Positions 1,355 to 33,164 of a DNA stretch of 34,975 bases are shown in pieces (the stretch's first letter is position 1; each line of letters begins with the position of its first letter). The translations under genes and the position numbers were made by a program. The notes below the pieces were generated by a model, which saw only the letters and a program-made list of their open reading frames with translations, did not search any database and was not told the DNA's origin. This stretch comes from Mycobacterium sp. (GTDB taxonomy: Bacteria; Actinomycetota; Actinomycetes; Mycobacteriales; Mycobacteriaceae), in the NCBI GenBank assembly GCA_020438845.1, contig JAGQTV010000059.1, positions 1-34,975 of the forward strand, read 5' to 3'.

Positions 1355-4300
1355 TCATGCGCACTCACCTGCATGGACTGTGAAGCACGACGGACAGACG
1401 CTTTCTGATCTCTGGGAACCTTGACCGTTTGATCCTAAAGCCGACGCACGCGCGGTGCTCGCGACACGTTGTTCGCTGGCCTTCGCATCCCGGCGCAGCG
1501 CCGCGACAACGGCGTTCCGCAGCTCAGTTGGTACTTGCCTGGTACGGAGCAGCTTGCCCACCCGGTCAACCAATTCGTTTTCAGACAGCGTTTTACCGGC
1601 TGACGCATTCCGACAGTACTGCAGCACCTCACTTGGGGGCACGATGTCAATGGTCCGGGGACCGAGTTCGCGTGCGACTGCTGAGGACTGGCTCGGCAGC
1701 CTGAAAGTCCTTGGCTTATTGCCGGTTTGGTTGAACGGGTTCTCCGAAACGATTCTCTGCCGGCGCTCAGCCGCTGAGATAGCCCTGTTGATTAGTCGAG
1801 AAAACTCGTCGTGAGACTCACCGCTCCCCGCGCTCTTTCTGTACACCTGGTGTATCCGCCAGCCGGTCACGGGACCTTCGACTCCGACAATGCGAACAAT
1901 GTTGTCGATGATGCGGTCGGCCGGTGTCTGCGAGATCGGTGACAACGCTTCGGAAAAAACGGGATAGGTCTTCAGTGCCGGAAGCCCAGGGCTGGTCGCC
2001 TGCGGCATAGCGCTCAAAGACGCGGGTGGCTCTTTTTGTTGCGGAGCGACGCGGCGCGGCCGGTCAGCAAACGTACCCTCCCTAGTGCGGGCGGACTCCT
2101 GGTTCGAAGGCCCGGGCTCGGCCGCCAGGCTACGGGGCGTTGGCGGCGGATGAATGACAGGTACCGGTGTCGACGGCCTCTGCGAAGCTGGCGGACGCTC
2201 GCGACAGGGTTGCTCGGAAACGGCCGTGCTGTCGCCTATCTTCGTCTCGGCTGGGGTTCCGGCGGGCGCGGCCTGTGCCGGATGGCCAAAGAGCCTTTCG
2301 CGCTCGGCGGCAATGATGTCGCGTGCGAGTTCGGCCTCGGTGACGTCATAGGCTTCCGGAGCGCTTGCGGCCAAGTCGCTCTCGCGCGCGAAACTTTCGA
2401 ATAGCGCTTTCTTCGTTGCGAGGATCTCCCGGAGCCTTTGATCCACACCTTCTTCGGAAAGCAGTCGATGAACCTGCACGGATTCCAGCTGTCCCATGCG
2501 GTGTGCACGGGCGATGGCTTGCCACTCGGTGGTGGGCTTGAATTGTGGTTCGCAGATCACGACGACAGATGCCGCTTGGATATTCAGACCCACGCCGCCG
2601 GCGACGATCTGGGCGACCAGCACCGCACCCTTCTTGGCAGCGGAGAAGTCGTCCACCAGTACCTGTCGCTGGCTGGCTGCGACTGAACCGGTTAAAGGGC
2701 CGAAGACCCTTCCGGGCATGTGCCGTGCGATGTCGCTCAGGACGTCGAGGAAGTGTGAGAACACGACAACACGGCGCCCATTTGCTTCCGCCTCCAGAAC
2801 GATCTCGACCAGGCGCTGCATTTTGGTCGACTTAAGCCCCTGCTTCATCGTGGCTTGCCGCATCGCCATGAAGTTTCGCTGCTCTACGGCAGCGCGGTAG
2901 GCGGCGACGTCCTCGCCCGACATCGGCATCCACTCGTCCACCTCGACGAGTTCCGGGAGTTCGGTGAGGACGTCTTCTTGGTTGCGTCGAAGGTACGCCG
3001 TTGCCACCTGGCGACGAAACTTCTTCGGAGCGAACTCGTTCGCATCCAACACAAGGTCTGGGCGCAGATACCCGACGAGATTGCGAAACTCGTCCAACCG
3101 ATTCTCCAGCGGTGTGCCGGTCAGGAGAATCGCTCGCTCACAAGAGTCGATGAGCTGCGACGTTCGCTGCGTACGAAGCGCATCGGGATTCTTGATGTAG
3201 TGGGCTTCATCGACGACCACGCAGCTGAGTGCCGGTACGGCGACCTCCTCGTTGAGCCAACGCAGCGTCTCGAAGGTGGTGACGCCGACGCCGCCGTTGC
3301 GCTCCCAGTTCTTGGCCGCCCATTGCCGGTCGGGCCCATGCAGGCGGTGCGCGGGCAGTTTAGATTTGGCGGTGACTTCGCGGACCCAGTTCGTCACTAC
3401 TGCGGCGGGACACACGACGAGGAAGTTGTGCTCGCCTTTCGCGCGAAGGTGCGCCAATGCTGCGATGGCTTCGACGGTCTTACCCAGGCCCATTTCGTCG
3501 CCGATGATGACTTTGCGCTGGACCAGAGCGAAGCGTGCAGCGAAGCTTTGGTAGCCGCGCAGTGACGCCGTGAGATAGTCGCCCTTCAGCTCGAAATCGC
3601 GGACCGCCTCGATGATTTCGGTGGGCAGGTCGCCATGGGTCTTCTCGTCTTCCTCGGTGATGAATCCCAGTTCGGCGAGCAGCGCGAAATAGTCCGCAGG
3701 CCGTGTGAGGAAGTCCTCCCACGGGTCACCGCTCGTCGCCGCGTCTTGCGCATCGGCGATCGCACGCGCGGACCGGGCCACAATCTGAATGGCGTCGCGG
3801 AAGTCCTCGACGGTCGACAATGCGCTCGGAATGACGATGGCATGGGTGACCTTGTTGTCGATGGCAGCCGCAACAGGCGCCAGTTCCTCGACGATCGCCA
3901 TATCAGCGGACGAAGCAGAAGCGCGACGAGCTGCGTCCCAGGCGCGGAGGCGGCGCAGGAATTCAGTGTGTTCTGGGGTGCGATTCTTGATGTCGATGCG
4001 CATCGGCATCTCATCGAAGGTGTTCTGTCTCAATGTCCGGGCGGCAGCGCGGATTCGGGTGGCGGAGGTCTGCCCGATGCCGTCGAAGTACTCGAGGCTT
4101 CCCTCGTTGTTCAGGACTGCGAGCACGTTGGTGATGCCGTTGTCTGTCAGAGCCGCGACGCGGATCTTGTCGCGGGTGGCTTCCCGGAGCCGCTCGACGG
4201 ACATATCGGCCAGCATTCGGTCGGTCTCTTTGTTTCGGACCTTATTGCCGGCGTCGACTGCAGACCTGCGCAGCTTGGACTCTTCGGCGGCTGCGCGCCG

Positions 4301-4909
4301 GATGACAGCTGTGGCGTTCGGGAGGATCGCGAAGGTCGTTGAGTCTTCAAGCGTGGCGGTTTGGCCGTGGTCGGGTAGCTGCGGTTTGAACCCCACCCAG
4401 TCGGCCAGCGCGTCGCGCATGGTCAGGGCCCGAATCCGTGGATCGTCAACCGGCCTGGCCTGGTCGATAGCCTGGCCGATACCGCTGGTGAGAAACCACC
4501 GCCGGTAGTCGGAGAGGAACTGTGCTGCCTGGTTGGCTTTGTCTCGTGTGCCGCCGAACATCAGTAGTCGGCCGAACCCCGTGACCTTTCTCAAGTCCTC
4601 CGCCGCCGCTGCGACCTCGGTGGTGAGCCTGTCGAGTTCTCGTTGAACGTCGGGGTGAATCGGTGGGAGGCAGGCCGAACGCGCCGTGGCTTGAAAGACG
4701 GCTTGGTCAGTGGAGCGCAACGGGATGACGTGCCAGAGGTAGCGATTGTTTCGCTGCGCCTTCACAGTGCGCGCTCGCAATGCTGCGGACTGTGCGGTGG
4801 ACGTGCTAGCAATCTCGTGGCGGGCCGCGGTCACCGCTGTGGCGGCGTCAACCCAGCCTCGTACTTCATCACCAATCGCCGATGTTGACGGCTGTTCCTC
4901 GCTGGCCAT
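1355..4909 (-). CDS. SNF2-family DNA-dependent ATPase with C-terminal zinc knuckle
   Basis: The 1184-aa product has a long N-terminal region (about 1-450) with a helix-hairpin-helix-like patch (GIGQTSATRIRAAA, near 280). The SNF2 motor follows: Walker A GDEMGLGKT with K477, DEAH at 567-570, and helicase C motifs VGLNIQAA and RAHRMGQ near 770-803. A proline/serine-rich linker leads to a winged-helix-like segment (DRIIDNIVRIVGVEGPV, near 1015-1030). The last 13 residues form a C-x2-C-x3-H-x3-C knuckle (C1172, C1175, H1179, C1183). Family members move along or remodel DNA using ATP; a restriction or defence role is inferred from the divergent operon. The same terminal knuckle is found on the 158-aa protein at 18029-18505, suggesting that the two work together or bind a common partner. 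It starts at ATG 4909, the last residue before a 127-base divergent promoter region. Confidence 0.9.
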   Translation of the reverse strand: MASEEQPSTSAIGDEVRGWVDAATAVTAARHEIASTSTAQSAALRARTVKAQRNNRYLWHVIPLRSTDQAVFQATARSACLPPIHPDVQRELDRLTTEVAAAAEDLRKVTGFGRLLMFGGTRDKANQAAQFLSDYRRWFLTSGIGQAIDQARPVDDPRIRALTMRDALADWVGFKPQLPDHGQTATLEDSTTFAILPNATAVIRRAAAEESKLRRSAVDAGNKVRNKETDRMLADMSVERLREATRDKIRVAALTDNGITNVLAVLNNEGSLEYFDGIGQTSATRIRAAARTLRQNTFDEMPMRIDIKNRTPEHTEFLRRLRAWDAARRASASSADMAIVEELAPVAAAIDNKVTHAIVIPSALSTVEDFRDAIQIVARSARAIADAQDAATSGDPWEDFLTRPADYFALLAELGFITEEDEKTHGDLPTEIIEAVRDFELKGDYLTASLRGYQSFAARFALVQRKVIIGDEMGLGKTVEAIAALAHLRAKGEHNFLVVCPAAVVTNWVREVTAKSKLPAHRLHGPDRQWAAKNWERNGGVGVTTFETLRWLNEEVAVPALSCVVVDEAHYIKNPDALRTQRTSQLIDSCERAILLTGTPLENRLDEFRNLVGYLRPDLVLDANEFAPKKFRRQVATAYLRRNQEDVLTELPELVEVDEWMPMSGEDVAAYRAAVEQRNFMAMRQATMKQGLKSTKMQRLVEIVLEAEANGRRVVVFSHFLDVLSDIARHMPGRVFGPLTGSVAASQRQVLVDDFSAAKKGAVLVAQIVAGGVGLNIQAASVVVICEPQFKPTTEWQAIARAHRMGQLESVQVHRLLSEEGVDQRLREILATKKALFESFARESDLAASAPEAYDVTEAELARDIIAAERERLFGHPAQAAPAGTPAETKIGDSTAVSEQPCRERPPASQRPSTPVPVIHPPPTPRSLAAEPGPSNQESARTREGTFADRPRRVAPQQKEPPASLSAMPQATSPGLPALKTYPVFSEALSPISQTPADRIIDNIVRIVGVEGPVTGWRIHQVYRKSAGSGESHDEFSRLINRAISAAERRQRIVSENPFNQTGNKPRTFRLPSQSSAVARELGPRTIDIVPPSEVLQYCRNASAGKTLSENELVDRVGKLLRTRQVPTELRNAVVAALRRDAKASEQRVASTARASALGSNGQGSQRSESVCPSCFTVHAGECA

Positions 4910-5036
4910 GGTCCCCGTTGGATCGATTCGCTCCCTTGCGGGAGATTAGCGGACCTAGCGACGGTTCGCGGACTACCCCCGATACTGTCGGAGGGGTCGA
5001 CTAGCGTGGGCCGGCTATCGACGGGGAGGACAAACA
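4910..5036. promoter_or_regulatory. Divergent promoter region between the SNF2 gene and the defence operon
   Basis: This 127-base gap must carry the promoters of both units. On the plus strand TACTGT at 4983-4988 fits the actinobacterial TAnnnT -10 pattern and would give a short leader with a GGGGAGGA ribosome-binding site just before GTG 5037. On the minus strand TAATCT (4948 to 4943) is a similar -10 candidate about 34 bases before ATG 4909. A small perfect stem, CTCCC-TTGC-GGGAG (4931-4944), lies in the leader of the SNF2 gene. The assignments are by eye. Confidence 0.4.
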
Positions 5037-8000
5037 GTGCTGCTGGAAGAGCTGAAGCCTGGCTTGCGCATCGACGGGCTGATCCCGTCCCAGGTAATCA
5101 CGGTGATCTTTGCCCAATGGCACGGCACCGACGCGCTGGAGCTGACTTACAAGACCAACGACGGCGCACTCGGTCAGCAGGTCGTGTTCCGCAAGGACCA
5201 GGACATCCTCACCGTCGCCCAGACCGGCAGCCGCGCGTTCGATGCCAACGCCACCGACTTCAAGATGGTTGCGGAGGCGCAGCGGATCACCCTGGCCGGG
5301 CTGTTTGACCCCATGCTGGCCGTGGCCACCAGCGATGTACGGCCGCTCCCCCATCAGATCCGCGCGGTGTACGGCGAGCTTCTCCCCCGCACCCCGCTGC
5401 GCTTCCTGCTCGCCGATGACCCCGGTGCCGGCAAGACCATCATGGCCGGCCTCTACATCAAAGAACTTCTACTGCGCGACGACGTTCGTCAATGCCTCAT
5501 CGTTGCTCCGGGGGGCCTGGTCGAGCAATGGCAAGACGAGCTGTTCTTCAAGTTCGGGCTACGCTTCGACCTGCTGACCAACCAGCTCATCGACGCCAAC
5601 GTCAACCTCAACGTCTTCGAGACCAACCCGCTGCTGATCGCCCGGATGGATCAGCTGTCCCGCAACGAGGAGCTGCAGGCCCAACTCAAGGAAACCGAGT
5701 GGGACCTGATCATCGTCGACGAGGCGCACCGTATGGGTGCCCACTACTTCGGCGGCAAGTTGGAGAAGACGAAACGGTTTCTGCTTGGTGAAATGCTCGG
5801 GCGCATCACGCGACATTTCTTGCTGATGACCGCGACGCCGCACTCCGGCAAGGAAGAAGACTTCCAGCTGTTCCTCACCCTGCTCGACCGCGACCGCTTC
5901 GAGGGCAAGAACACCAAGACCGCCAACACCGACGGCATCATGCGCCGGATGGTCAAAGAGGACCTGCTGACCTTCGAGGGCAAAAAGCTGTTCCCCGAGC
6001 GTCGCGCCGAAACCGTGCCCTATGAGCTCACCGAGCTGGAATATGCGTTGTACGCACAGGTCACCGACTACGTGCGCGAGGGCATGAATCGGGCCGACCG
6101 GGTAGGCGGCAAACGCAAGAACACCGTCGGGTTCGCGCTGACGGTGCTGCAACGGCGATTGGCGTCAAGCCCCGAAGCCATCTATAGGAGCCTGGTCCGG
6201 CGCACCGAGCGCCTGGAGCGCAAAAAGCTGGAGATCCTCAACGGCACCTACACCGACAAAGAACCCACCATCGACTTCGAGGCCCTGGACGCCGACGACT
6301 ACAACTCCGAACAGATCGAAGAACTCGAAGAGGAACTGCTCGACGCTGCCACCGCTGCCCAGACCGTAGAGGAACTCGACGCCGAAATCCTCGAACTCGC
6401 AGACCTGACGACGGTTGCCAAGCAAGTCCGCGACTCCGGCACCGACCGCAAGTGGACCGAGCTCAGCAGAATCCTGCAGGACGAAGCGCTGACCGTCGAC
6501 GCCAACGGGTGGCCGCGCAAGCTCATCATCTTCACCGAACACCGCGACACCCTCGACTATCTCGCCGGCCGCATTCGGACGTTGATCGGCAAGCCTAACG
6601 CCGTGCAGGCCATCCACGGCGGGGTGCGCCGCAAGGAACGGCGCATGATCACCGAAGAGTTCACCAAGAACCGCGACTGCCAGATCCTGCTAGCCACCGA
6701 CGCCGCCGGCGAAGGCCTCAACCTTCAAGCCGCCCACCTGATGGTCAACTACGACCTACCGTGGAACCCCAATCGCATCGAACAGCGCTTCGGCCGAATC
6801 CACCGCATCGGCCAAGAAGAAGTCTGCCGGCTCTGGAATCTCGTCGCCAGCAACACCCGCGAAGGCGCAGTCTTCGAACGCCTGCTGGAAAAGATCGAAG
6901 AACAGCGAAAGGCATACGGCGGCAAGGTCTTCGATGTTCTCGGCGAGGCTTTTGCCGATACACCTTTACGTGACCTGCTACTAGATGCGATCCGCTACGG
7001 TGAGCGCGACGACGTGAAGGCCAAGATGCACGAGGTCATCGACCACAAGGTGGCCGATGGACTGAAAGAGCTGCTCGACGAACGCGCGCTGGCGTCGGAT
7101 CACCTCGCCGACGCGGATCTAGCCAAGCTTCGCGCCGCCATGGACGAAGCCCGTGCCCGCCGTCTACAACCGCACTACATCGAACTCGCATTCAAGGCCG
7201 CGTTCACCCGGCTCGGCGGCCGCATCGCCAAACGCGAACGCGGCCGCTACGAGATCGCCAACGTCCCAGCACAAATCAGAGCCAGCAAGTACCAGCCGAT
7301 CGCGACCAAGTACGACCGAGTCGCCTTCGATCTGGATCACGTGCACTCCGAGGAACTGGCGCGCGCCGACCTGCTCGCGCCAGGACACCCGCTACATGAC
7401 GCGGTGATGGACGAAGCGATTCGGCATTTCGGCGGCACGCTCAACAGCGGCACGGTGCTCGTGTCGGCGACGCTGGAGGAACCCCATCTACTTGTCGGAG
7501 TCGTCGAAGAAGTCGCCGATGCCGCCGGTGCCGCGGTGTCCAGACGATTCGGCTACGCCTATGTCGACAGACTCGGCACCGTAACGCCCGCAGGCCCGGC
7601 ACCGTATCTGGATTGTGTCGCCGCACCCGATACCCCGGCCGTCGCCGGTGCGCGTCAATCTCCTTGGCTAGCCGACGCCGAAGACCGGGCAACCAGCTGG
7701 ATCATCACCACCCAACTGCCCGAGTACCTCGCCGAAGTGCAACCACGTCGCGCTGCTGAACTCGCCAAGGCGCGAGAGCTTGTCGTGAAACGGCTTGAAG
7801 GAGAACGTGACCGGCTTCTACTCGATGCTGCCGTAGCAGCCGAGAAGGAACGTGCTGGCGAGAAGCCGAAAGAGTCGGCCGAGAGCCTTAACCGGAAGGC
7901 CGTCGAGCTTGACGCGCGTCTACGCAAACGCCTTGATCTGCTCGACAAGCAGGCCCTGATGTCGACCAAACCACCGCGGATCATGACGGCCGCACTGGTA

Positions 8001-8447
8001 CTCCCCGTTTCCATGGTGGACGGCGAGTTGCCAACCTCAGCGCCAATCCACGCCAAAGAGACCAAAGAGGTCGAACGCCGAGGTGTCGACCTAGTGATGG
8101 CGACGGAACGAACGCTTGGCCGCACACCGGTCGAACAAGCATTCAACAACAAGGGATTCGACATCCTGTCCTCAGATGCCGGCGGTGACACCTACCGCAT
8201 CGAGGTCAAAGCCCGACTCGACGGTGCCACCGACTTCTTCGTCACGCACAACGAAGTGATGGTCGGCAAGAACGCAGTACCGCGGTATCGGCTGGCTTTG
8301 GTCAAGGTGGATCCACGAGGACCAGCCCATGACGAGCTCCGATACCTCGCCAACCCGTTCGCCTCGACAGACCTCGGTGACTTTGACGCGACCGGAGTCC
8401 GCGGCGACTGGAACAAAATGTGGAACAAAGGAACTGAGCCATTCTGA
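5037..8447 (+). CDS. SF2/SNF2-like helicase with C-terminal DUF3883 domain (DrmD-like)
   Basis: The 1136-aa product has Walker A DDPGAGKT (K133), DEAH at about 228-231, and a helicase C half with HGGVRRKER, ATDAAGEGLNLQ and QRFGRIHRIGQ (from Q583). The middle, about 400-455, is a Glu-rich helical insert. The C-terminus, about 1015-1115, matches DUF3883, with GFDILS and YRIEVKAR; the E-x-K pair resembles the core of a PD-(D/E)XK nuclease fold, so a nuclease or DNA-end-binding role is possible. It is the first gene of the operon, and its GTG start follows GGGGAGGA. Helicases of this architecture (HepA/DrmD type) stand beside DUF1156 methylases in DISARM-class systems, where they probably act on unmodified invading DNA. 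The stop overlaps the methylase start by one base (TGATG). Confidence 0.95.
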   Translation: MLLEELKPGLRIDGLIPSQVITVIFAQWHGTDALELTYKTNDGALGQQVVFRKDQDILTVAQTGSRAFDANATDFKMVAEAQRITLAGLFDPMLAVATSDVRPLPHQIRAVYGELLPRTPLRFLLADDPGAGKTIMAGLYIKELLLRDDVRQCLIVAPGGLVEQWQDELFFKFGLRFDLLTNQLIDANVNLNVFETNPLLIARMDQLSRNEELQAQLKETEWDLIIVDEAHRMGAHYFGGKLEKTKRFLLGEMLGRITRHFLLMTATPHSGKEEDFQLFLTLLDRDRFEGKNTKTANTDGIMRRMVKEDLLTFEGKKLFPERRAETVPYELTELEYALYAQVTDYVREGMNRADRVGGKRKNTVGFALTVLQRRLASSPEAIYRSLVRRTERLERKKLEILNGTYTDKEPTIDFEALDADDYNSEQIEELEEELLDAATAAQTVEELDAEILELADLTTVAKQVRDSGTDRKWTELSRILQDEALTVDANGWPRKLIIFTEHRDTLDYLAGRIRTLIGKPNAVQAIHGGVRRKERRMITEEFTKNRDCQILLATDAAGEGLNLQAAHLMVNYDLPWNPNRIEQRFGRIHRIGQEEVCRLWNLVASNTREGAVFERLLEKIEEQRKAYGGKVFDVLGEAFADTPLRDLLLDAIRYGERDDVKAKMHEVIDHKVADGLKELLDERALASDHLADADLAKLRAAMDEARARRLQPHYIELAFKAAFTRLGGRIAKRERGRYEIANVPAQIRASKYQPIATKYDRVAFDLDHVHSEELARADLLAPGHPLHDAVMDEAIRHFGGTLNSGTVLVSATLEEPHLLVGVVEEVADAAGAAVSRRFGYAYVDRLGTVTPAGPAPYLDCVAAPDTPAVAGARQSPWLADAEDRATSWIITTQLPEYLAEVQPRRAAELAKARELVVKRLEGERDRLLLDAAVAAEKERAGEKPKESAESLNRKAVELDARLRKRLDLLDKQALMSTKPPRIMTAALVLPVSMVDGELPTSAPIHAKETKEVERRGVDLVMATERTLGRTPVEQAFNNKGFDILSSDAGGDTYRIEVKARLDGATDFFVTHNEVMVGKNAVPRYRLALVKVDPRGPAHDELRYLANPFASTDLGDFDATGVRGDWNKMWNKGTEPF

Positions 8448-11260: not shown

Positions 11261-11261
11261 C

Positions 11262-13103
11262 ATGGGATTCCTCACAAATATGTACAAGTTGGGTGAGTAC
11301 CTGAAGTGGACTCGTTCGGGTGAGATGCAGTTGCCGGACTTCCAGCGCGGGTACAAATGGGAAGACGAACGCATCCGTCAGCTCTTGGTAACGGTGCTGC
11401 GCGGACACCCGATGGGTGCCGTCATGCTGCTGAAGACCGGCAACTCACAGGTGCGATTCAAGCCCCGCACAATCGAGGGTGTCCACCTCGCCCCAGGCAC
11501 CGAGGCTAAGTATCTGCTGTTGGATGGGCAGCAGCGTCTGACATCGCTGACGCAAGCCCTCAGCGGGAACGGTGTAGTCGCAACGAAAGATAGCCGCGGA
11601 CGACTGCTCGACCGGCGCTACTTCATCCAGATGGAGACTGCGCTCGGCGACCCGAACCGCGTTGACGAGGCGGTGATCTCGGTACCGGCGGACGGCGTCG
11701 TTCGGTCGAACTTCGGCAAAGACGTGGTGCTGGACCTCAGCGATCCGGACAAGCAGCACGAGCACGGCCACTTCCCGTTGAACCTGCTCTACGGCGACTA
11801 CATGAGCTGGATTCTAGAACTGCAGAACCCGACGCTAGGCAAGCACTTTCATGACAAGTTCATCAAGCAGTCGGCCACCTACGACATCCCCGCGATCGTC
11901 TTGGACGAGGACACTGACAAGGCGGCCGTGGCCACCGTCTTCGAGAAGGTGAACATTGGTGGCCTGCCTCTCAACGTGTTCGAACTGCTCACCGCCGTCT
12001 TCGCCGGCGACGCCGACCACTACGACAAGACCGGCGAGGACTTCCGGCTCAATGACGACTGGCGGGAGACCCAACTAAAGTGGTCGTCCTACCCGGTGCT
12101 GGCGGCCGTCGAGAACACTGATTTCCTCCAAGCGGTCACCATGCTCACCACCCGCCAACGCCACCTCGCCGACACCTCCGACCGGCCGCCGGCCATCTCG
12201 GCCAAGCGCGAGGACGTCCTGAAGCTGACCTTGAGCGACTATCTGCAGTGGCGCGAACCTCTGCGCGAGGCGTTCATCTGGGCGTCAACATTCCTGGCTG
12301 ACCGCCACATCTTCGCACCACGAGACGTGCCCTACCCCAAACAGCTGGTTCCGCTGGCCGCCATCAAGGTGGTGCTGGGCAAGCAAGCAGATCTGATCAG
12401 TGTGAGTGAACGTCTCGTCCGCTGGTACTGGTGTGGCGTGCTCGGCGAACTCTACGGCTCGGCAATCGAATCGCGGTTCGCCCGCGACATCGAGATGGTT
12501 CCGCCCTGGGCCACCGACGGCTCCTCGCCGGTGCCGAGGACCGTACAGGACGCCAGCTTCACCGAATCCCGCCTGCACTCTCTTCGAACACGCAACGCCG
12601 CTGCTTATAAGGGTATTGCTGCGCTCATCCTCGCCGGGGGTGCTCGCGACTGGATGGAAGACAAAGCGCTCGACAAGGTTCAGTACGTCGACCTCGCGGT
12701 CGACATCCACCACATCTTCCCTCAAAAGTGGTGCGACACCAATGGCATCGATGCAGAGCACCGGGAAAGCATCGTCAACAAGACAACGATCAGCGCGCGA
12801 ACCAACCGCACGATCGGCGGTGTCGCCCCATCTGCGTACCTTCCCGTAATCGAGACGCGAGCACAGATTGACTCGACTCACCTCGACGGCCTCGTGGCCA
12901 CTCACCTAATTCCGGCCGACTTCCTCCGCCAGGACCACTTCGAGAACTTTTTCCGTACGCGGCGCGAATCGCTGTGCGAGCTGGTCGAAAAGGCGATCGG
13001 TAAGGCCGTGCAGCGAGACATCGACTTGGGATTCGCCGACGAGGACTCGGCACAGTTTGAGCCCGAGGAGTTTCCCAACGACGCAGGCATGGAGAACGAC
13101 TGA
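11262..13103 (+). CDS. DUF262/DUF1524 GmrSD-like nuclease
   Basis: The ATG at 11262, one base after the methylase stop and behind a GAAGAGG site, gives a 613-aa protein; the frame is open further upstream but that part lies inside the methylase gene. The N-terminal DUF262 domain shows LPDFQRGYKW (24-33) and LLDGQQRLTSL (about 86-96), the ParB/Srx-like NTP-using half of GmrSD enzymes. The C-terminal DUF1524 half has the HNH-type nuclease motif VDIHHIFPQKWC near 480-491, followed by the conserved Asn-containing helix (TISARTNRT). GmrSD proteins are type IV enzymes that cut glucosylated or otherwise modified phage DNA. In this operon it may be the cutting module, or it may add protection against phages with modified DNA. 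Its stop overlaps the next start (TGATG). Confidence 0.93.
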   Translation: MGFLTNMYKLGEYLKWTRSGEMQLPDFQRGYKWEDERIRQLLVTVLRGHPMGAVMLLKTGNSQVRFKPRTIEGVHLAPGTEAKYLLLDGQQRLTSLTQALSGNGVVATKDSRGRLLDRRYFIQMETALGDPNRVDEAVISVPADGVVRSNFGKDVVLDLSDPDKQHEHGHFPLNLLYGDYMSWILELQNPTLGKHFHDKFIKQSATYDIPAIVLDEDTDKAAVATVFEKVNIGGLPLNVFELLTAVFAGDADHYDKTGEDFRLNDDWRETQLKWSSYPVLAAVENTDFLQAVTMLTTRQRHLADTSDRPPAISAKREDVLKLTLSDYLQWREPLREAFIWASTFLADRHIFAPRDVPYPKQLVPLAAIKVVLGKQADLISVSERLVRWYWCGVLGELYGSAIESRFARDIEMVPPWATDGSSPVPRTVQDASFTESRLHSLRTRNAAAYKGIAALILAGGARDWMEDKALDKVQYVDLAVDIHHIFPQKWCDTNGIDAEHRESIVNKTTISARTNRTIGGVAPSAYLPVIETRAQIDSTHLDGLVATHLIPADFLRQDHFENFFRTRRESLCELVEKAIGKAVQRDIDLGFADEDSAQFEPEEFPNDAGMEND

Positions 13104-16100
13104 TGGCGCTAAGCAACCGCGACCGCATCGACCGCATGTTCCAGACGATGGCACCGCCGCTGGATGACTTCATCGCTTCGGTGATCGGGCAGGGCGATCC
13201 AGCGCTCGGAGCTGCCTGGACGAAACTGGTTCAACTCAAGGACGGGAAGAAGGGTGCGCCGTCGGACAAGACCTACAACCCGCTCGACCCTCAGGTCCAG
13301 TTCCGCATCCTCACCGAAACGAACGTTACCAACGGTTTCAAGCCGGGTTGGTACCCGTTCAGCCAAACACTGGGCAAAGCCGGGGAGTCCTTCGCCATCG
13401 AACTCCGCGAAGTCCGCAACACGTGGGCCCACAACGGCACCTTCAGCGATGACGACGCCTACCGCGCGTTGGACACCGGCGAGCGACTGCTCAAGCTCAT
13501 CGGAGCGGCCAAGGAGGCCGACGAGGTTCACGCCATCCGCCTCAACCTGCGCCGTGTCACCGCCGACAAAGACGACAAGAAGACACTCAAAGCCGCCGTC
13601 GACAACCCCGAGGCTGCGGGCCTCAAACCCTGGCGCGAAGTACTGCCACCCCACCACGACGTCGCTACCGGAAACTTCGCCGCCTCCGAATTTGCCGCCG
13701 ACCTTTATAAAGTCGCCTTCGGCGGCGAGAAGGATTCCGGCTATGCCGACGCGGTTGAGTTCTTTCGCCGCACCTACCTCACCGAAGGCCTGACCGACCT
13801 CGTCGGCCGCGCAGTCCGCCGGCTCTCCGGCGACGACAACGCACCGCCTGTTATCAACCTGCAGACCAACTTCGGTGGCGGCAAGACACATTCGATGCTC
13901 GCACTGTGGCACGTCGCCGCAGGACTGCCCGTCGGGCAGTTCCCCCAGGACACCCAGGAACTGCTGACCAACAACGGCTACAACGGTGCCAGGGTCAACC
14001 GGGTCGCCATCGTCGGCAACCACTTCAGCCCGGCCGGCACGACCAAGGACGACGGCACCCACGTCAACACCATCTGGGGCGAGCTCGCCTGGCAACTCGG
14101 AGGCGCCGAGGCCTACGCCCTGGTCGCCAAGGCCGACGGAGATCGCACCACACCCGGGGAGGCGCTCCACGACCTGCTCGCGAAGTACTCCCCCGCGGTC
14201 ATCCTGATCGACGAATGGGTCGCCTACGCCCGCTCACTCGTCGGCCGCGACGACCTGGCCGGCGGTACCTTCGACGACCAGTTCACCTTCGCCCAATCCC
14301 TCACCGAGGCGGCAAAGGGCACTTCCGGTGTTCTGCTGGTCATTTCCATCCCCGCGTCGGAAACCGGGGACGATTCGGACAAGATCGTCGCCGGTAATGC
14401 CGAAGAAGTCGGCGGCGCGCACGGCCTCGAAGCGCTGAAACGACTGCAGAACGTCGTGCGTCGCGTCGCCGAACAATGGCGGCCAGCGTCCTCGGCAGAG
14501 GCCTACCAGATCGTCCGACAACGCCTCTTCGTCCAACCTGACGGTGCTGCACTCGCCTCCATCGGAGCCACCGCGCGCGCCTACGTCGACATGTACCGCA
14601 AGTACGCCGACGACTTCCCGCGTGAATCCCGCGACACCGCATACGAAGACCGCATCAAGAGGACCTACCCCATCCATCCTGAGTTGTTCGACCGACTCTA
14701 CGAAGAATGGTCCTCGCTGGAACGCTTCCAGCGCACCCGCGGCGTCCTGCGGTTGATGAGCACCGTTATTCACGCGTTGTGGGCGGGTGAGGACGCCTCG
14801 CCCTTGATCATGCCTGGGTCCATCCCGCTGGCCACAGCCAACGTCAACGCCGAACTCACGTCCTACCTGCAAGATTCGTGGAAAGCGATCATCGACGCCG
14901 ATGTCGACGGGCTAACCTCCGAGCCTGCGCGGATCGACAAGGAGAAGCCCGTCTTCGGTCAGCGGTCGCTGACCAAGCGGCTGGCCCGCACGGTGTTCTT
15001 TGGCGCCACTCCGACTATAGGGTCCGCGCACAAGGGCCTCGAAACCCAGCGGGTCTTCCTAGGCACTGCTGTTCCGGGTGATGTTCCTGGGAACTTCCAT
15101 TCTGCGCTCACCCAACTTGGTGACCGGGCCACGTACTTCTATTCCGGTTCGGGCAAGTATTGGTATGACCTGCAGGCCAACATCACTCGCACCGCCAAGG
15201 ACCAGGCGGAGCGACTGCACAAGGAAGATGTCTGGGCCGAGATCGCCCGTCGCCTGCAGGGCCAGGCGAAGACTCGTGGGGACTTCGCGGGAGTGCACGT
15301 GTGCCCCGAATCGAACGCGGATATCCCCGACACCGACGAAGCCCGACTGATCGTCCTGCATCCGAAGGTTGCGCACAAACGCGGATCGGACTCTCCCGCT
15401 AAGGCGTTCGCCCAAAAGGCAACCGAGCAGCGTGGCACCGCCAATCGAACCAACCGCAACATGCTGGTGTTTTTGGCCGCCGACGAAGCGCGACTTGAGG
15501 AGCTCGACGCCGCTACGCGGGACTACCTCGGCTGGTCCCATGTGCTGGCCAACGAGGCCGACCTGGATCTGACCCAAAACCAAAAGAATCAAGCGTCCAC
15601 TCGGCAGGCGCAGGCCGACCAGACGGTGAAGTCGCGTCTGCTGCAAACGTTCACGTGGGCACTGGTCCCGTCACAGCCTGATGCGAGCGCTCCATTCGTT
15701 GTGCGAGAAACGAAGGTCGAAGGCCAGTCCGAGTCCTTGGCCGAACGAGTAGCCCGACGCCTCGGCAACGACGGCGATCTTTCCGTTCGGCAGGCCGCGG
15801 TAACGATCCGGCTCGCCGTCAACAAGGTGCCACAAATCTGGAAGGACGGTCACGTCACCCTCGGCGCGCTGTGGGGGCTGTACTGCCAGTACCCGTACAT
15901 GCCGCGCCTGCGGGATCGGCGCGTTCTGGAGGAGGGCGTCCTCGACCTTCCGATGATCTGGGAAACCGACGCGTTTGCCCTGGCGACCGGGATCGACGCT
16001 GCCACAGGACGGTTTGTCGGGCTCTGGATCCCAGGCGACACCAATTCAGCACCCAGTCCAGCGGACTCGCTGCTCTTGGTGCGTCCCGACGTCGCGATCC

Positions 16101-16465
16101 ATCAGCGAAAGCACGAGAAACCAACTGAAACGGGTTCCGACACCGACACTGGGACCGGAGAGGGCACCGGGACGGGAACTGGGACTGGAACAAGCGCCGG
16201 AACTGGAACTGGCCCCGGCCCTATCGATATCGCGTTCACGCGGTTCTACGGAGTCAAGACGCTCAGCTCGGACAAGATTGCGATGGACTTCAAGAACATC
16301 GCCGATGAGGTGATCGCCAACCTTCGGGAACAGGGCATCAACCTGGTCGTGAAGATTGAGATCGAAGCGGTCGACGCAACAGGCTTTGATGAGAACAAGA
16401 TCCGTACGGTGTCGGAGAACGCGAAGACCCTGAAGTTTGACCAGTCGGGGTTCGAGAAAGAATGA
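13103..16465 (+). CDS. DUF499 AAA-type ATPase with N-terminal Swt1/HEPN-like domain
   Basis: The 1120-aa product begins with an all-helical domain (about 1-150) of the Swt1-like HEPN type, carrying R105-NTWA-H110, a fit to the R-x4-H signature of HEPN ribonucleases. The DUF499 ATPase core follows with Walker A NFGGGKTHSM (K261) and Walker B LIDEW (D370). A long C-terminal part includes a Gly/Thr-only linker (about 1015-1035) and a last domain, about 1045-1120, that is mixed alpha/beta. DUF499 proteins regularly stand beside DUF1156 methylases and SF2 helicases in defence islands; the ATPase probably senses or moves on DNA and controls an effector. The HEPN motif suggests that this protein could also cut RNA. 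It is translationally coupled to the DUF262 gene. Confidence 0.93.
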   Translation: MALSNRDRIDRMFQTMAPPLDDFIASVIGQGDPALGAAWTKLVQLKDGKKGAPSDKTYNPLDPQVQFRILTETNVTNGFKPGWYPFSQTLGKAGESFAIELREVRNTWAHNGTFSDDDAYRALDTGERLLKLIGAAKEADEVHAIRLNLRRVTADKDDKKTLKAAVDNPEAAGLKPWREVLPPHHDVATGNFAASEFAADLYKVAFGGEKDSGYADAVEFFRRTYLTEGLTDLVGRAVRRLSGDDNAPPVINLQTNFGGGKTHSMLALWHVAAGLPVGQFPQDTQELLTNNGYNGARVNRVAIVGNHFSPAGTTKDDGTHVNTIWGELAWQLGGAEAYALVAKADGDRTTPGEALHDLLAKYSPAVILIDEWVAYARSLVGRDDLAGGTFDDQFTFAQSLTEAAKGTSGVLLVISIPASETGDDSDKIVAGNAEEVGGAHGLEALKRLQNVVRRVAEQWRPASSAEAYQIVRQRLFVQPDGAALASIGATARAYVDMYRKYADDFPRESRDTAYEDRIKRTYPIHPELFDRLYEEWSSLERFQRTRGVLRLMSTVIHALWAGEDASPLIMPGSIPLATANVNAELTSYLQDSWKAIIDADVDGLTSEPARIDKEKPVFGQRSLTKRLARTVFFGATPTIGSAHKGLETQRVFLGTAVPGDVPGNFHSALTQLGDRATYFYSGSGKYWYDLQANITRTAKDQAERLHKEDVWAEIARRLQGQAKTRGDFAGVHVCPESNADIPDTDEARLIVLHPKVAHKRGSDSPAKAFAQKATEQRGTANRTNRNMLVFLAADEARLEELDAATRDYLGWSHVLANEADLDLTQNQKNQASTRQAQADQTVKSRLLQTFTWALVPSQPDASAPFVVRETKVEGQSESLAERVARRLGNDGDLSVRQAAVTIRLAVNKVPQIWKDGHVTLGALWGLYCQYPYMPRLRDRRVLEEGVLDLPMIWETDAFALATGIDAATGRFVGLWIPGDTNSAPSPADSLLLVRPDVAIHQRKHEKPTETGSDTDTGTGEGTGTGTGTGTSAGTGTGPGPIDIAFTRFYGVKTLSSDKIAMDFKNIADEVIANLREQGINLVVKIEIEAVDATGFDENKIRTVSENAKTLKFDQSGFEKE

Positions 16466-16498
16466 CCACCGGCAAGCTTGCAGAGTGGAGATGATGAG

Positions 16499-17014
16499 TT
16501 GTCCCGATTCGCACCACGGATACAGTCGACGCCGCTTCTTGGCCGAATATTCGGGTCCGGCGGCGAACGCCGCACCGACGAACTCGACAAGTGGCTCGAG
16601 GAGACACTCAAGCGCGAGTTCAAGCTTGACGCCATCGAGCGTGACGAGGACGGCGACATCCCCATCTCCCGCGGTAGCGCGGTTGTGTACGTACACACTG
16701 CGGATGACGATCCACCGCGCATCGAGATCTTTTCCCCGCTGCTGGAGGAGTTCACCATGCGCCCCGAGGTGTTCGCGGCAGTCAACTCCATCAATCGAAA
16801 TACACCGCTCGCCAAGGCATACGTCGACCCAGACAACGCACAAATCGTGCTGACCGCAGAGTTGTACATCTTCGACGAACTCTCCCCCGACCAGTTATTG
16901 GCAACTATCGACCTTGTGGCCGACCGAGCGGACCACTACGACAGCCTTCTTCAGAAACGGTTCGGCGGCAGAACCATGCTCGACGACGATGAACGCGACG
17001 AGTTCGATGTCTAA
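16499..17014 (+). CDS. Small YbjN / type III chaperone-like protein
   Basis: The 171-aa acidic product has the alternating strand-helix layout of the YbjN/CesT-type chaperone fold: SAVVYVHTADDDPPRIEIFSP, then NSINRNTPLAKAYVD, then IVLTAELYIFDELSPDQL and a last long helix. Such domains usually bind a partner protein and have no active site. I prefer the TTG at 16499 because GTGGAG lies eight bases before it; a TTG at 16478 in the same frame has a poorer site. It sits 33 bases after the ATPase gene and its end overlaps the protease gene by eight bases. A role as partner or inhibitor of the neighbouring ATPase or protease is inferred only from position. The family call is from the pattern of motifs and is moderate. 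Confidence 0.75.
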   Translation: MSRFAPRIQSTPLLGRIFGSGGERRTDELDKWLEETLKREFKLDAIERDEDGDIPISRGSAVVYVHTADDDPPRIEIFSPLLEEFTMRPEVFAAVNSINRNTPLAKAYVDPDNAQIVLTAELYIFDELSPDQLLATIDLVADRADHYDSLLQKRFGGRTMLDDDERDEFDV

Positions 17015-17921
17015 CACACCGGGGCGGTTGCTCCGACAGTTCAGTGACGAGATCATCGATCTGGCCGAGCGGGTTGTGCTCTCCACTGCCATCGTCAAGG
17101 GACAGACTCACGATTTCGAGGAAGGCAGCGGGTCCGCGTTCGTCTACGACGTCGAACACCTCGTCACAAACAATCACGTAGTACAAGACCTCGTCGAACC
17201 CATCTACGTTCAGCTTCCCGGCGCGCAGCATGCCGAGGCACGGGTAGTCGGTCGCGACCCTTTGACCGATCTGGCGGTCCTTCGCGTGGACCCGCAATCT
17301 GCTCAGCCACTTGCGATCTCACCCCAGGGGGCCCGGCTTGGCGAACTCTGCTTCGCATTCGGCAGCCCTTTAGGCGAGTTCCCGGAGAGCATCAGCATCG
17401 GCATCGTGAGCGGACTGAAGCGGAGCCTTCCCACCGGCGACAAGCAAGCGATCTTTGACGTCATCCAGACGGACGCGGCGATCAACCCGGGGAACTCCGG
17501 GGGGCCGTTGGTGAACGTCGACGGTCAAGTCATCGGTGTGAACACGGCAGCTATTCCCGAGGCGGACGGCATCGGCTTCGCGGTTCCCGCCGACACCGTC
17601 GCTGAGGTCGTCCATGAGCTCATCACCTACGGAGCAGTTGAACGCGCGTCGCTCGGAGTCAGCGTCGCACGTCGGGCCGTCGACCGCGCACCCGGTGGCC
17701 ATGCTCTTGTGGTGACCGCTGTTCGCGATAATTCAGCAGGCCCCTTCGAGCGCGGCGATGCCATAGTCGCTGTCGGCGATCGCGACATCCACTCCCAGAA
17801 TGACCTGCTGCGCGCATTGCGGCGAGATGTCGCCAACCGAAGGGTCAACGTTGTGGTGCTGCGTGGTGACCACGAAGTCTCGATCGAGTGTCGGCCCCGC
17901 AGCGTACGAACCTTCGGCTGA
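17007..17921 (+). CDS. HtrA/DegP-like trypsin-PDZ serine protease without signal peptide
   Basis: From ATG 17007 the product is 304 aa. The trypsin-fold triad is intact: H57 in VTNNHVV, D88 in LTDLAVLRVD, and S164 in NPGNSGGPL. A PDZ domain (about 205-300) contains SLGVSV near its start, then AVRDNSAGPFERGDAIVAVGD. HtrA enzymes normally act in the envelope and begin with a signal peptide or membrane segment; here the N-terminus (MSNTPGRLLRQFSDEI) is a polar helix, so the protease should be cytoplasmic. It overlaps the chaperone-like gene by eight bases and belongs to the defence operon. A plausible but untested role is an effector that cuts a host or partner protein when the ATPase or helicase senses foreign DNA. 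Longer upstream in-frame starts run inside the previous gene and look non-coding. Confidence 0.9.
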   Translation: MSNTPGRLLRQFSDEIIDLAERVVLSTAIVKGQTHDFEEGSGSAFVYDVEHLVTNNHVVQDLVEPIYVQLPGAQHAEARVVGRDPLTDLAVLRVDPQSAQPLAISPQGARLGELCFAFGSPLGEFPESISIGIVSGLKRSLPTGDKQAIFDVIQTDAAINPGNSGGPLVNVDGQVIGVNTAAIPEADGIGFAVPADTVAEVVHELITYGAVERASLGVSVARRAVDRAPGGHALVVTAVRDNSAGPFERGDAIVAVGDRDIHSQNDLLRALRRDVANRRVNVVVLRGDHEVSIECRPRSVRTFG

Positions 17922-18028
17922 TCGAAGACAAAGACCATCGGCCTCTTGGAAGTGCCACCCCGAATCCGGCAATGCGTGCACCATCGAACGTTCCATCCCA
18001 CTTCAAGCAGGTCGGAGGTATGTAACAG

Positions 18029-18505
18029 TTGCCCATGGTCCCCACTGGCGAATGCCCTCACGATTCAATTCGCGCAGAGATCCAACAGATCCTGATCGAC
18101 CACCCCCGCACCCGCTATGCCAAGGTGCTGCTCGGCATGCTGCGCGGGCTTACCGACGCCGAAATGGCGAAAGAGGCCGCCGAAGCAGGGGAACCGATCA
18201 GTGCCGACAGCATTGCGAATGTTCGCAGGTTGGTTCGCTTGTCCATGGACGACAAACTTGTGCCGGCTCCGTCTGATGCCGAGGGGCAAGCTGGACTTTA
18301 TCGCGAACTGCTGAACTACCGGCGTTCACCTGAACTGACACAACACATCAAAACCAAGCTGGCGAAGCTGCGGGAGCTAGACCCCAAGATTCTGCTGACG
18401 CCTCTCGGTCATGTCCATCTCGGCGCGAACGATCCCTCGAAGCCAGAGAAGCCGGAAAAAGTTTGTCCTCACTGCTATTTGGTGCATGCAGGAGAGTGCC
18501 CATGA
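18029..18505 (+). CDS. HTH-like protein ending in the VHAGEC zinc knuckle
   Basis: The TTG start at 18029 follows GGAGG at 18014-18018 with 10 bases between; an in-frame ATG at 18035 is too far from the site. The 158-aa product has a helical core, including a helix-turn-helix-like part (LTDAEMAKEAAEAGEPISAD, then SIANVRRLVRLS, about 42-72), and a C-terminal C-x2-C-x3-H-x3-C knuckle (C146, C149, H153, C157) as its last 13 residues. The same ending closes the SNF2 protein 16.7 kb away, with identity over VHAGEC. A further cysteine/histidine group (ECPHD) lies at the N-terminus. I do not know the family. It may be a DNA-binding sensor or adaptor of the system. It is 107 bases after the protease gene, so it may have its own promoter or be last in the operon. 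Confidence 0.85.
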   Translation: MPMVPTGECPHDSIRAEIQQILIDHPRTRYAKVLLGMLRGLTDAEMAKEAAEAGEPISADSIANVRRLVRLSMDDKLVPAPSDAEGQAGLYRELLNYRRSPELTQHIKTKLAKLRELDPKILLTPLGHVHLGANDPSKPEKPEKVCPHCYLVHAGECP

Positions 18506-18594
18506 GCACCAGACTCGGCGTCACCCCAACTCACCTCCCGTGTCTCCAACGCGGCGCGGGCTATCCGGCATCAGACGTCGGGGCCACTCGATAA
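18502..18594 (+). CDS. Possible 30-aa reading frame coupled to its neighbours
   Basis: An ATG at 18502 overlaps the stop of the previous gene (ATGA) and a TAA at 18592-18594 directly precedes the GTG of the next frame. The 30-aa product (MSTRLGVTPTHLPCLQRG...) has no recognisable features. It may serve only to carry ribosomes from the upstream gene to the following one. There is no evidence beyond the start-stop geometry. Confidence 0.2.
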   Translation: MSTRLGVTPTHLPCLQRGAGYPASDVGATR

Positions 18595-18813
18595 GTGAGT
18601 TACTCGGAAAGCACGCCACGCCTCTGCAATCTCAAGAACCCGGCGCACAAGGTCGAAACATGCCTGCGCTGCCAGCGATTGCTCCGCAGTCCGGAAGCTC
18701 GCAAAAACCTTCGCGAAAAGAGGAAGGCGGATCGACGCACTGAAAAGGAGTATGACGCGAAGCGCAATCCGATTCGCCTCGTGCAAGGCGGGCTAGGGTC
18801 CGGCAGCAAGTAG
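18595..18813 (+). CDS. Small basic cysteine-containing protein (72 aa)
   Basis: The GTG at 18595 directly follows the TAA of the 30-aa frame. The product contains two cysteine sites (RLCNLKNPAHKVETC and LRCQRLL) followed by a very basic helix (SPEARKNLREKRKADRRTEK). This would suit a small zinc-ribbon or DNA/RNA-binding protein. I recognise no family, and it may be a spurious frame. If real, it is the last gene of the plus-strand defence operon. Confidence 0.4.
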   Translation: MSYSESTPRLCNLKNPAHKVETCLRCQRLLRSPEARKNLREKRKADRRTEKEYDAKRNPIRLVQGGLGSGSK

Positions 18814-19115: not shown

Positions 19116-20096
19116 CTACCACTCCCCGTCAGGGACTACGTCGGGGCTCACCCCACCGATGGTGACCACTGTCTTCGGATCGATGGGAACAAACGGATCC
19201 TCCTTGGTGCCGAGCTTTTTGCCGACGCTCTTGACGTTCGACAAGATCTTGGACGGTGCGAGGTCCTGCGCGTCGGCGTCGTAGTAGTCGAACCAAGGCA
19301 ACCCGGCTTCTACGTAGGTGTCCCGGTCGACCGAGGTCGGCGGCGGCACCTCTCCGGTGATCGCGGTCCACTGCGCGGCCGAGCACAGGTGGACGAAGAC
19401 CCGCCGGGCGCCATCCTCGTCGTAGTCGGCCAGCGGGCGATCGTCGGCGTACACCTCTTGACGCATCCGGCCGCCAGCCCCCAATCCCATACTGCTCCCC
19501 GAGGGCGCCGGCAGCGGTCCGCCATCCACAAGGTCCTCGCAGCACATCACTTGCAGTGCTTGTGCGGCGTGCCACGCCGCCAGCGCCTGCTCGGTCAGAG
19601 CGACAGCACGGAGTTGCACGCCACCGTGGGTCTCCTCCCCCGTCACCTGTCCTTCGACTGTGGCGCCCGAACCGAGCGGCACGGCAACGAACTGGCGGAT
19701 GAACCCATCCCCCGAGTTGATGCCGTCCAGCCAGGGCTGCTGGGGCAACGCCACGTAGTTCTGCGGGTCACCGACGAGGTGATCGATCCACGGCAAACCG
19801 CTAACCGCGCACACCTTGCCCACGCCAATCTGCAGCGCTGCGGGCTCGGAAGCGCTGAACGACAGCCACATCGCCTCGCACTGGTAGACCGGCAGCATCA
19901 CCCCGCCACGAACTAGCCATTCGGCTGGTGCGGTATTGGGGTAGTCCGCGACCCGCCGCAACGGAAACCGGCCCAGACCCGGCGGCAGCGGATGCAACCC
20001 CGTCTCGGGGATTCGCAGCGTCCTCTGAAAACTCACCGTCACTGCACCCAGCACCAGCTTGTCGCTGACGATCTTTACCGGCGCGCTCTGCGTCAT
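19116..20096 (-). CDS. Conserved-looking protein of unknown function with two 'GLPW-D' repeats
   Basis: The ATG at 20096 is chosen over an in-frame ATG four codons upstream because GGAGG lies five bases before it. The 326-aa product has no signal peptide and no membrane segment. It contains QPWLDGINSGDGFIRQFVAV, then VPLGSGATVEGQVTG, and a second block with GLPWFDYYDADAQD. A related stretch, SGLPWIDHLVGDPQNY, occurs earlier, so the protein may hold two diverged copies of a module. I believe this motif set belongs to a broadly distributed bacterial family with no assigned function, but I cannot name it. It stands alone, convergent to the defence operon and upstream of the macro-domain gene on the other side. 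Confidence 0.8.
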   Translation of the reverse strand: MTQSAPVKIVSDKLVLGAVTVSFQRTLRIPETGLHPLPPGLGRFPLRRVADYPNTAPAEWLVRGGVMLPVYQCEAMWLSFSASEPAALQIGVGKVCAVSGLPWIDHLVGDPQNYVALPQQPWLDGINSGDGFIRQFVAVPLGSGATVEGQVTGEETHGGVQLRAVALTEQALAAWHAAQALQVMCCEDLVDGGPLPAPSGSSMGLGAGGRMRQEVYADDRPLADYDEDGARRVFVHLCSAAQWTAITGEVPPPTSVDRDTYVEAGLPWFDYYDADAQDLAPSKILSNVKSVGKKLGTKEDPFVPIDPKTVVTIGGVSPDVVPDGEW

Positions 20097-20175
20097 GACT
20101 ACCTCCATCTCGGTACTGCTCTATGGATAGCACCGGGCACCGACACCTAGGGATTGCGCCTTCGGCCTAGACCCC

Positions 20176-22085: not shown

Positions 22086-22110
22086 GCAGAACAGTATGCA
22101 TCTGGGCACC
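22086..22110 (-). promoter_or_regulatory. Leaderless-type promoter of the macro-domain gene
   Basis: On the minus strand GCATACTGTTCTGC directly precedes ATG 22085. Either CATACT (22098 to 22093) or TACTGT (22096 to 22091) can act as a -10 box, placing transcription start at or near the A of the ATG. No ribosome-binding site is present, which agrees with leaderless translation as is common in mycobacteria. Confidence 0.4.
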
Positions 22111-22118
22111 GACGTCAA

Positions 22119-33079: not shown

Positions 33080-33164
33080 TGTGACTGTGCTCCGATTCCT
33101 CGACGCTGAACAGACCCTGGTCCTCGGTGTCGGCCATAGTCGGCGCTCCCCTACTGCAATACCG

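Follow-up and report, generated by a model that had tools for sequence, protein, structure and literature searches.

Hma was named in 2021 as an operon of a helicase, a methylase and an ATPase (Payne et al. 2021, PMC8565338), and it was reclassified in 2026 as the Type-1 BREX-related (BR) system (Rakesh and Krishnan 2026, PMC12839542). The latter paper reports a HEPN fusion of Type-1 BR in 1370 of 2446 taxa, and it lists HNH nucleases of the GmrSD type with the auxiliary effectors that serve BREX and BR systems. Here we describe a locus of this family on a 34,975-nucleotide stretch of Mycobacterium sp. DNA (GenBank assembly GCA_020438845.1, contig JAGQTV010000059.1; hereafter the window), which is the entire contig C36 of a draft genome of 4.53 Mb in 118 contigs. 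A previous sequence-only reading had proposed a composite defence cluster with a DISARM-related core, a GmrSD-like nuclease, a cytoplasmic HtrA protease and zinc-tail proteins. We lean, with modest confidence, towards an Hma restriction locus carrying an optional chaperone-protease arm, in the form of an attached YbjN-HtrA cassette. The genes named by the sequence-only reading lie where it had placed them and on the strands it gave, as judged from the open reading frames and Pfam, and the enzyme matches are far above noise (Table 1). It was also correct in seeing a defence locus that combines genes for modifying and cutting DNA with one for a protease, in recognizing a DUF499/DUF1156 core and the GmrSD-like nuclease, and in noting the divergent SNF2 gene.

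By its model matches, the core is an Hma system (HmaA-HmaB-HmaC; alias Type-1 BREX-related) with a HEPN-fused HmaC. As expected from the definition in PMC8565338, each of the three proteins matches its own PADLOC model: HmaA over residues 2-1126 (PDLC00659, 1292 bits), HmaB over residues 9-928 (PDLC00660, 1109 bits), and HmaC with 879 bits (PDLC00662). The neighbouring frames touch or overlap from HmaA through HmaC. The locus also resembles Type-1 BR as described in the consulted text of PMC12839542, which gives a HEPN-fused DUF499 ATPase, a DUF1156 N6-methylase and a helicase with a C-terminal PD-(D/E)XK domain. The C-terminus of HmaA holds a PD-(D/E)XK-like motif, GFD-x(13)-EVK, within a candidate nuclease, and the N-terminal HEPN domain of HmaC holds RNTWAH, an RxxxxH motif. 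HmaC did not match a simple Walker-A pattern, and a GGGKTH stretch is present in it. HmaB is called an m5C methylase in the part of PMC8565338 that we consulted, whereas PMC12839542 and the DPPY motif of the window protein point to N6-adenine. In an identity profile against comparison genomes G214, G493 and G565 (G numbers denote comparison genomes and L numbers individual loci), HmaB is most variable at about residues 240-520, as would be expected of a target-recognition-like region if target specificity changes.

The DISARM label of the sequence-only reading was wrong. The locus shares DrmD-like SNF2 helicases and a methylase with DISARM, but there is no DrmB among the PADLOC matches listed for the eight proteins, DUF1998 (DrmB) is absent from the Pfam scans of the window proteins, and the helicases fall below the NCBIfam cut-off for DrmD (610 bits, against 364.6 for HmaA and 54.8 for the SNF2 protein). 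The sole trace of DrmA among the matches listed is a cross-match of HmaA to the DrmA helicase model. The core is already modelled as a known system, namely Hma in PADLOC, whereas the GmrSD-like insert, the divergent SNF2 gene and the YbjN-HtrA end all lie outside the three-gene definition of PMC8565338, as far as its consulted text goes. The words "trypsin" and "HtrA" are also absent from the main text of PMC12839542, where proteases or peptidases are mentioned, in the parts consulted, in connection with BrxL, in a comparison with MoxR-vWA and in the references.

What appears to be new is the end of the operon, where a TY-Chap1 gene overlaps the gene of a cytoplasmic HtrA directly after HmaC; among the matches listed from open-licence PMC papers, no link between Hma or DUF499 and trypsin or HtrA was found. 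The two frames overlap by 8 bases. The YbjN-like protein matches PF22551 (TY-Chap1) with 126.9 bits against a cut-off of 27, and a PDB sequence search with it gave no match. In the protease, both Trypsin_2 and PDZ_2 are above their Pfam cut-offs, and the H/D/S catalytic triad is present in all ten aligned HtrA sequences. Bacterial HtrA proteases usually carry an export signal or a membrane anchor; in the window protein we found no strongly hydrophobic segment that could serve as either, and over the first 70 residues its 19-residue hydropathy peaks at 1.0. Both YbjN and HtrA are under purifying selection: against the window, and with the Hma-free pair of G578 included, omega was 0.05-0.17 for HtrA (nine comparisons) and 0.09-0.20 for YbjN (seven comparisons), compared with 0.04-0.07 for HmaC (four comparisons), although several dS values were saturated (>1.4) and the corresponding omegas are rough. 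The low omega, the intact triad and the lack of a strongly hydrophobic segment indicate that HtrA is a maintained and presumably active cytoplasmic enzyme. We infer that YbjN and HtrA form a chaperone-protease pair, because their frames overlap, because they are present together in nine loci, and because they also occur together without Hma in G578; this is the firmest of our new inferences.

The C-terminus of the YbjN-like protein may offer a point of contact within the pair. PDZ ligands follow a rule of hydrophobic residues at positions 0 and -2, and the end of the protein (...DEFDV) resembles such a ligand. All seven aligned Hma-linked YbjN proteins end in E-F-D-V, and that of G578 ends in E-F-D-A. 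The conservation of D-V is confounded, because the last two codons and the stop of YbjN overlap the start of HtrA, so that E-F alone is independent. Among distant TY-Chap1 proteins without an adjoining trypsin gene, 7 of the 13 listed have a -YL end after a variable linker (L019-L023, L025 and L026), and these frequent ends suggest that short motifs at the C-terminus are a recurring trait of the family.

To see how far the pair is kept with Hma, 297 Mycobacterium genomes were searched for HtrA (E<=1e-70) and for HmaC (E<=1e-100). HtrA was found in 11 of them: nine in which it lies directly behind YbjN and HmaC (the window, G214, G337, G395, G417, G436, G493, G554 and G565), G404 and G578. HmaC was found in 28 genomes, nine of which have YbjN directly downstream (interrupted in G417); among the other 19, two (G414 and G598) reach a contig end. 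In the nine loci the order SNF2 / HmaA-HmaB-(GmrSD)-HmaC-YbjN-HtrA is constant, with five differing arrangements past HtrA. The pair of G404 lies on a 3.6-kb contig as YbjN-HtrA-Macro, which is too short to judge, and the HmaC search gave nothing in that genome. Chance adjacency of the pair to Hma was rejected on the strength of nine of ten readable genomes. The expectation that the pair would be kept with the core elsewhere holds for 9 of the 28 mycobacterial HmaC genomes, but the association is lineage-specific and was not found in 24 loci of other families, some of them cut by contig ends. Spread of the pair on plasmids was also considered and rejected, as a search of 72,556 plasmid records with YbjN and with the zinc-tail protein gave nothing at E<=1e-3. 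HtrA had matches in 59 plasmid records, each below 60% identity, and neither of the two whose neighbours were viewed had Hma beside it.

The phylogeny points the same way. In a tree of 37 HmaC proteins, whose rows were chosen (G367 with its broken frame, G636, G414, G598 and most of the more distant class-wide loci being left out) and which, like the Fisher test given below, takes no account of near-copies among the window, G214, G337, G395 and G417, the nine HtrA-positive loci fall within one clade of 14 rows (SH-aLRT 99), and the HtrA label requires four changes. The HmaC of G557 is 92-93% identical to that of the window and yet lacks the pair, which shows that the pair can be lost. By this tree, the pair seems to have been acquired a single time, in one lineage of mycobacterial Hma, and one gain with several losses is the simplest account; it is a lineage-specific attachment and not a universal part of Hma. 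The locus decays often: HmaB is broken by transposase genes (recognized by eye) in G337 and G082, and in G417 an IS3-like element (also named by eye) interrupts YbjN; transposase genes lie at 5371-6825 of L072, 6001-7455 of L074 and 7407-8675 of L104.

Several observations weigh against a functional attachment of the pair to Hma. One is G578, where a diverged pair (HtrA 66%, YbjN 57%) occurs without Hma. Within the HmaC clade, 5 of the 14 members lack the pair, so that the co-occurrence may reflect one gain and several losses, and an independent-pairs test, with one supported pair, had no power. Among 30 class-wide HmaC-type loci (the window excluded, several cut by contig ends), the pair was found in G214 and G337 and not in the other 28; 24 of the 30 belong to other families, and none of these 24 has it. 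Of 108 matching plasmid records, the Hma loci of five (Rhodococcus, Arthrobacter and Gordonia) were viewed, and their annotation, which is incomplete, names no such protease. No trypsin-like gene lies within 1.5 kb of distant class TY-Chap1 genes at 26 loci. G395 carries a second, start-truncated HtrA copy with a zinc-tail gene and with no YbjN or Hma within the 20 kb read. Finally, two of the nine loci are damaged, with YbjN split in G417 and HtrA in two frames in G395.

These points bear on two other explanations. One is that YbjN-HtrA is a separate module for defence or stress response, which has no more than the island in common with Hma and neither acts on Hma nor needs it. The pair of G578, which sits in a defence island next to a truncated PglW and a PDC-S37-type helicase with no Hma found, speaks for this, as do the five pair-free members of the same HmaC clade and the 3' end of mycobacterial Hma operons, which is a slot with varied cargo (Schlafen AlbA_2, HATPase). 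What speaks against it is that nine of ten readable genomes have HtrA right after YbjN and HmaC, with the order unchanged despite their differing flanks; we regard an independent module as possible, though rather unlikely. The other explanation makes HtrA a caretaker that keeps the stoichiometry of HmaA, HmaB and HmaC and removes misassembled, potentially toxic HEPN or nuclease subunits. Members of the HtrA family do carry out protein quality control, which fits such a role, and the window HtrA matches such families; moreover, HmaC carries a predicted HEPN RNase (Pfam HEPN_Swt1) that is potentially toxic. However, most Hma loci do without HtrA (28 of 30 class-wide and 19 of 28 genomes in the genus, some cut by contig ends), and we consider a caretaker unlikely, somewhat more so than an independent module. 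An Hma locus with an optional chaperone-protease arm is the reading that we retain.

The slot itself was seen at several loci. At the 3' end of mycobacterial Hma operons, Pfam identifies Schlafen AlbA_2 in L182 and an HATPase in L193, and a PIN-like gene (L178) and a second HATPase (L194) were recognized there by eye. At the stand-alone pair (L156 and L219), a truncated PglW, which is a component of BREX type 2, and a PDC-S37/Hhe-like helicase are nearby. L151 of G395 is a partial copy of the cluster end (truncated HtrA, zinc-tail, 330-amino-acid and Macro genes) without Hma, some 117 kb away from the complete cluster.

Mycobacterial Hma may have acquired trypsin-like proteases on two occasions, as HtrA downstream and as another trypsin upstream. 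G640 and G452 have no HtrA of the window type, and their HmaA is directly preceded by a different trypsin-like gene (375 and 377 amino acids, Trypsin_2 E=2e-17 and 2e-18; L198 6303-7430 and L200 2716-3849). Two loci are suggestive only, and the argument for a second recruitment is weakened because two Rhodococcus plasmids carry relatives of this trypsin without Hma next to them; for the same reason, the upstream trypsin was rejected as an Hma-specific gene.

The divergent SNF2 ATPase appears to be DpdE/DrmD-like, with PADLOC matches to DpdE (PDLC02852, E=7e-260, 863 bits) and DrmD (PDLC02627, E=5e-133); it falls below the NCBIfam cut-off for DpdE (NF041062, 89.7 against 500 bits). A SNF2 gene divergent to HmaA is found in 9 of 9 HtrA-positive and 3 of 11 HtrA-negative mycobacterial loci (Fisher p=0.0014, uncorrected for kinship). 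This count covers loci with both flanks readable, and eight of the 28 HmaC genomes (G473, G636, G626, G426, G514, G610, G414 and G598) were left out for an unreadable flank or for lack of an HmaA near HmaB; the readable upstream side of G598 has no SNF2, and G426, G514 and G610 have no SNF2 match in 12 kb. Outside the family, G347 and G367, which represent two further families, have a relative (53%) without the Cys/His tail next to Hma, and DEAD/DEAH-annotated helicases, putative counterparts by annotation and position, are divergent to HmaA on an Arthrobacter and a Rhodococcus plasmid. The mycobacterial counts, the other families and the plasmid helicases together make SNF2 a recurrent companion of Hma, and it is probably older there than the protease.

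The GmrSD-like protein, which the sequence-only reading had called a DUF262/DUF1524 protein, is secure in its first half, with GmrSD_N (DUF262, ParB-like) at 97.9 bits against a cut-off of 33.2 and a DGQQR motif. The DUF1524 half (GmrSD_C) remains below threshold (15.0 bits against 23, E=0.024), with an HNH-type motif, HHIFPQ, visible. An Hma core with a GmrSD-type partner is not new, since it is already in the consulted parts of PMC8565338 and PMC12839542. Five of the nine HtrA loci have the gene, and these are also the five with the small zinc-tail gene; because they form one clade (support 98 in the HmaC tree), the co-presence of the two genes may be a single event. The GmrSD gene also occurs in G452 without the YbjN-HtrA pair and in G212, which belongs to another family, and G258 retains a remnant of it.

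The zinc-tail proteins are present as claimed, but not as a fixed part of the system. The small protein has no Pfam or PADLOC match, and the SNF2 protein ends, on a C-terminal extension, in nearly the same Cys/His tail (...VCPSCFTVHAGECA; CPxC...HAGEC); both tails are recovered by one profile. The small protein is kept in five of the nine Hma-HtrA loci. The SNF2 tail is likewise present in five (the window, G214, G337, G395 and, behind a frameshift, G436) and absent from G417, G493, G554 and G565. Across the 297 Mycobacterium genomes, the profile search found the tail family in 32, standing alone or forming the C-terminal end of another protein, and a single-sequence tail query matched 4 of 296 class genomes, all of them Mycobacterium. 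Named records with the protein include Mycolicibacterium parafortuitum and [Mycobacterium] fortunisiensis. HATPase, SIR2, TIR, ADP-ribosylglycohydrolase (ARG) and N6-methylase genes lie near the family in the neighbour-scanned loci. The tail family is thus a wider mycobacterial family, specific neither to Hma nor to HtrA, and the tail was rejected as a constant part of the system. Enzymes of the endonuclease/exonuclease/phosphatase type with a C-terminal zinc tail were seen in L163 (by Pfam) and in L014, L166 and L170 (by likeness); that of L014 (7052-8380), in the genome of the window (C93), lies two genes after an N6-methylase gene. The small protein is probably helical; a three-row structure prediction gave six low-confidence helices with a mean pLDDT of 55.8. 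A PDB sequence search gave two matches at chance level, and a tblastn search of phages with the zinc-tail protein gave none. The tail weakly matches the phage family phrog_1581, the model of which also matches 3 of 14 control genomes.

Since HtrA PDZ domains bind C-termini, a single composite system is conceivable in which the HtrA PDZ domain recognizes the Cys/His tails of the SNF2 and small proteins as tags. Two cluster proteins do share almost the same tail, and both tails occur in four of the nine HtrA loci, but neither occurs in three (G493, G554 and G565), the tail family is found in 32 of 297 genomes against 11 for HtrA, so that many tail genomes have no HtrA, and the tail looks like a zinc knuckle and not like a free peptide. 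We consider this highly improbable, and the tail was rejected as an HtrA degron or PDZ ligand, because the tails are inconstant across the nine loci.

Table 1 Features of the Hma locus and its surroundings in the window
Feature	Position	Strand	Evidence or remark
SNF2 ATPase, 1184 amino acids	1355-4909	-	Pfam SNF2-rel_dom E=7e-35
HmaA helicase, C-terminal NOV_C (formerly DUF3883)	5037-8447	+	PADLOC HmaA 1292 bits; NOV_C E=7e-17
HmaB methyltransferase with DUF1156	8447-11260	+	PADLOC HmaB 1109 bits; Pfam DUF1156 E=9e-30
GmrSD-like nuclease, between HmaB and HmaC	~11244-13103	+	Pfam GmrSD_N (DUF262) E=1e-27
HmaC, Swt1-type HEPN and DUF499	13103-16465	+	PADLOC 879 bits; HEPN_Swt1 E=2e-29, DUF499 E=4e-26
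YbjN-like TY-Chap1	~16499-17014	+	Pfam TY-Chap1 E=5e-37; TTG start at 16499 or 16478
HtrA-type trypsin-PDZ protease	17007-17921	+	Pfam Trypsin_2 E=1e-29, PDZ_2 E=4e-8
Small zinc-tail protein, optional member	18035-18505	+	C-terminal end CPHCYLVHAGECP; zinc-knuckle-like tail
Unknown 330-amino-acid protein and Macro-domain protein	19116-20108 and 20358-22118	convergent with the operon	

Beyond the operon, the Macro and 330-amino-acid genes both follow the cluster in six species (the window, G214, G337, G395, G493 and G554); the Macro gene occurs without the 330-amino-acid gene in G404, and neither is found in G417, G565 and G436. TY-Chap1 and Macro also meet in the ARG systems described in the consulted part of PMC9503650. 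The same contig encodes, at 26796-33137, a DarB-like antirestriction/methylase-helicase protein of 2113 amino acids (phrog_10089, 1204 bits), which suggests a mobile element.

With the roles of the core proteins taken from published family descriptions, the locus probably works as follows. HmaB would mark self DNA by methylation, its variable region determining the target site; HmaC, an ATPase with a HEPN RNase, would scan, and HmaA, with its helicase and PD-(D/E)XK-like nuclease, would destroy unmarked DNA. The GmrSD-like nuclease may be a second cutter, probably for modified phage DNA, and the divergent SNF2 protein may assist translocation. The YbjN-like chaperone and the cytoplasmic HtrA would be made as a pair, in which HtrA is probably bound by the chaperone, with the C-terminal E-F-D-V of the latter perhaps docking on the PDZ domain; the chaperone would either hold the protease inactive or supply it with substrates that infection exposes. 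The targets of HtrA would then be phage or host proteins, or else the Hma complex, which it would prune. What the sequences show is gene identity, order, conservation and purifying selection; each step in the action of chaperone and protease, and their link to Hma, we infer. A more specific version, in which YbjN holds HtrA through E-F-D-V and PDZ, infection sensed by the HmaC complex frees the protease, and trypsins were perhaps recruited twice, is speculative, and we rate it as unlikely, slightly below the caretaker role.

Two described groups come close to the pair. The window YbjN is a TY-Chap1 by Pfam, like those of the ARG systems; in the consulted part of PMC9503650 the partners of TY-Chap1 are ARG and phosphatases, whereas here they are HtrA and Hma. 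Trypsin-like domains also occur in the defence loci of Avs1 and of reverse-transcriptase-linked proteins, and HtrA matches the corresponding models (RT-Protease_XI E=1e-16; Avs1b E=0.004). In contrast to those systems, there is no reverse transcriptase or Avs-type ATPase among the matches listed for the eight proteins, and the window HtrA is a separate protein with a PDZ domain and its own chaperone. If the proposed arm is real, a defence of the restriction type would be coupled to regulated proteolysis within the cell, and HtrA, normally an envelope protease, would work in the cytoplasm under a dedicated chaperone. This would give a testable function to TY-Chap1 proteins, which are predicted chaperones in the consulted part of PMC9503650. 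It would also be a reason to look for proteases in other BREX-related loci, the auxiliary effectors of which are nucleases in the text consulted of PMC12839542.

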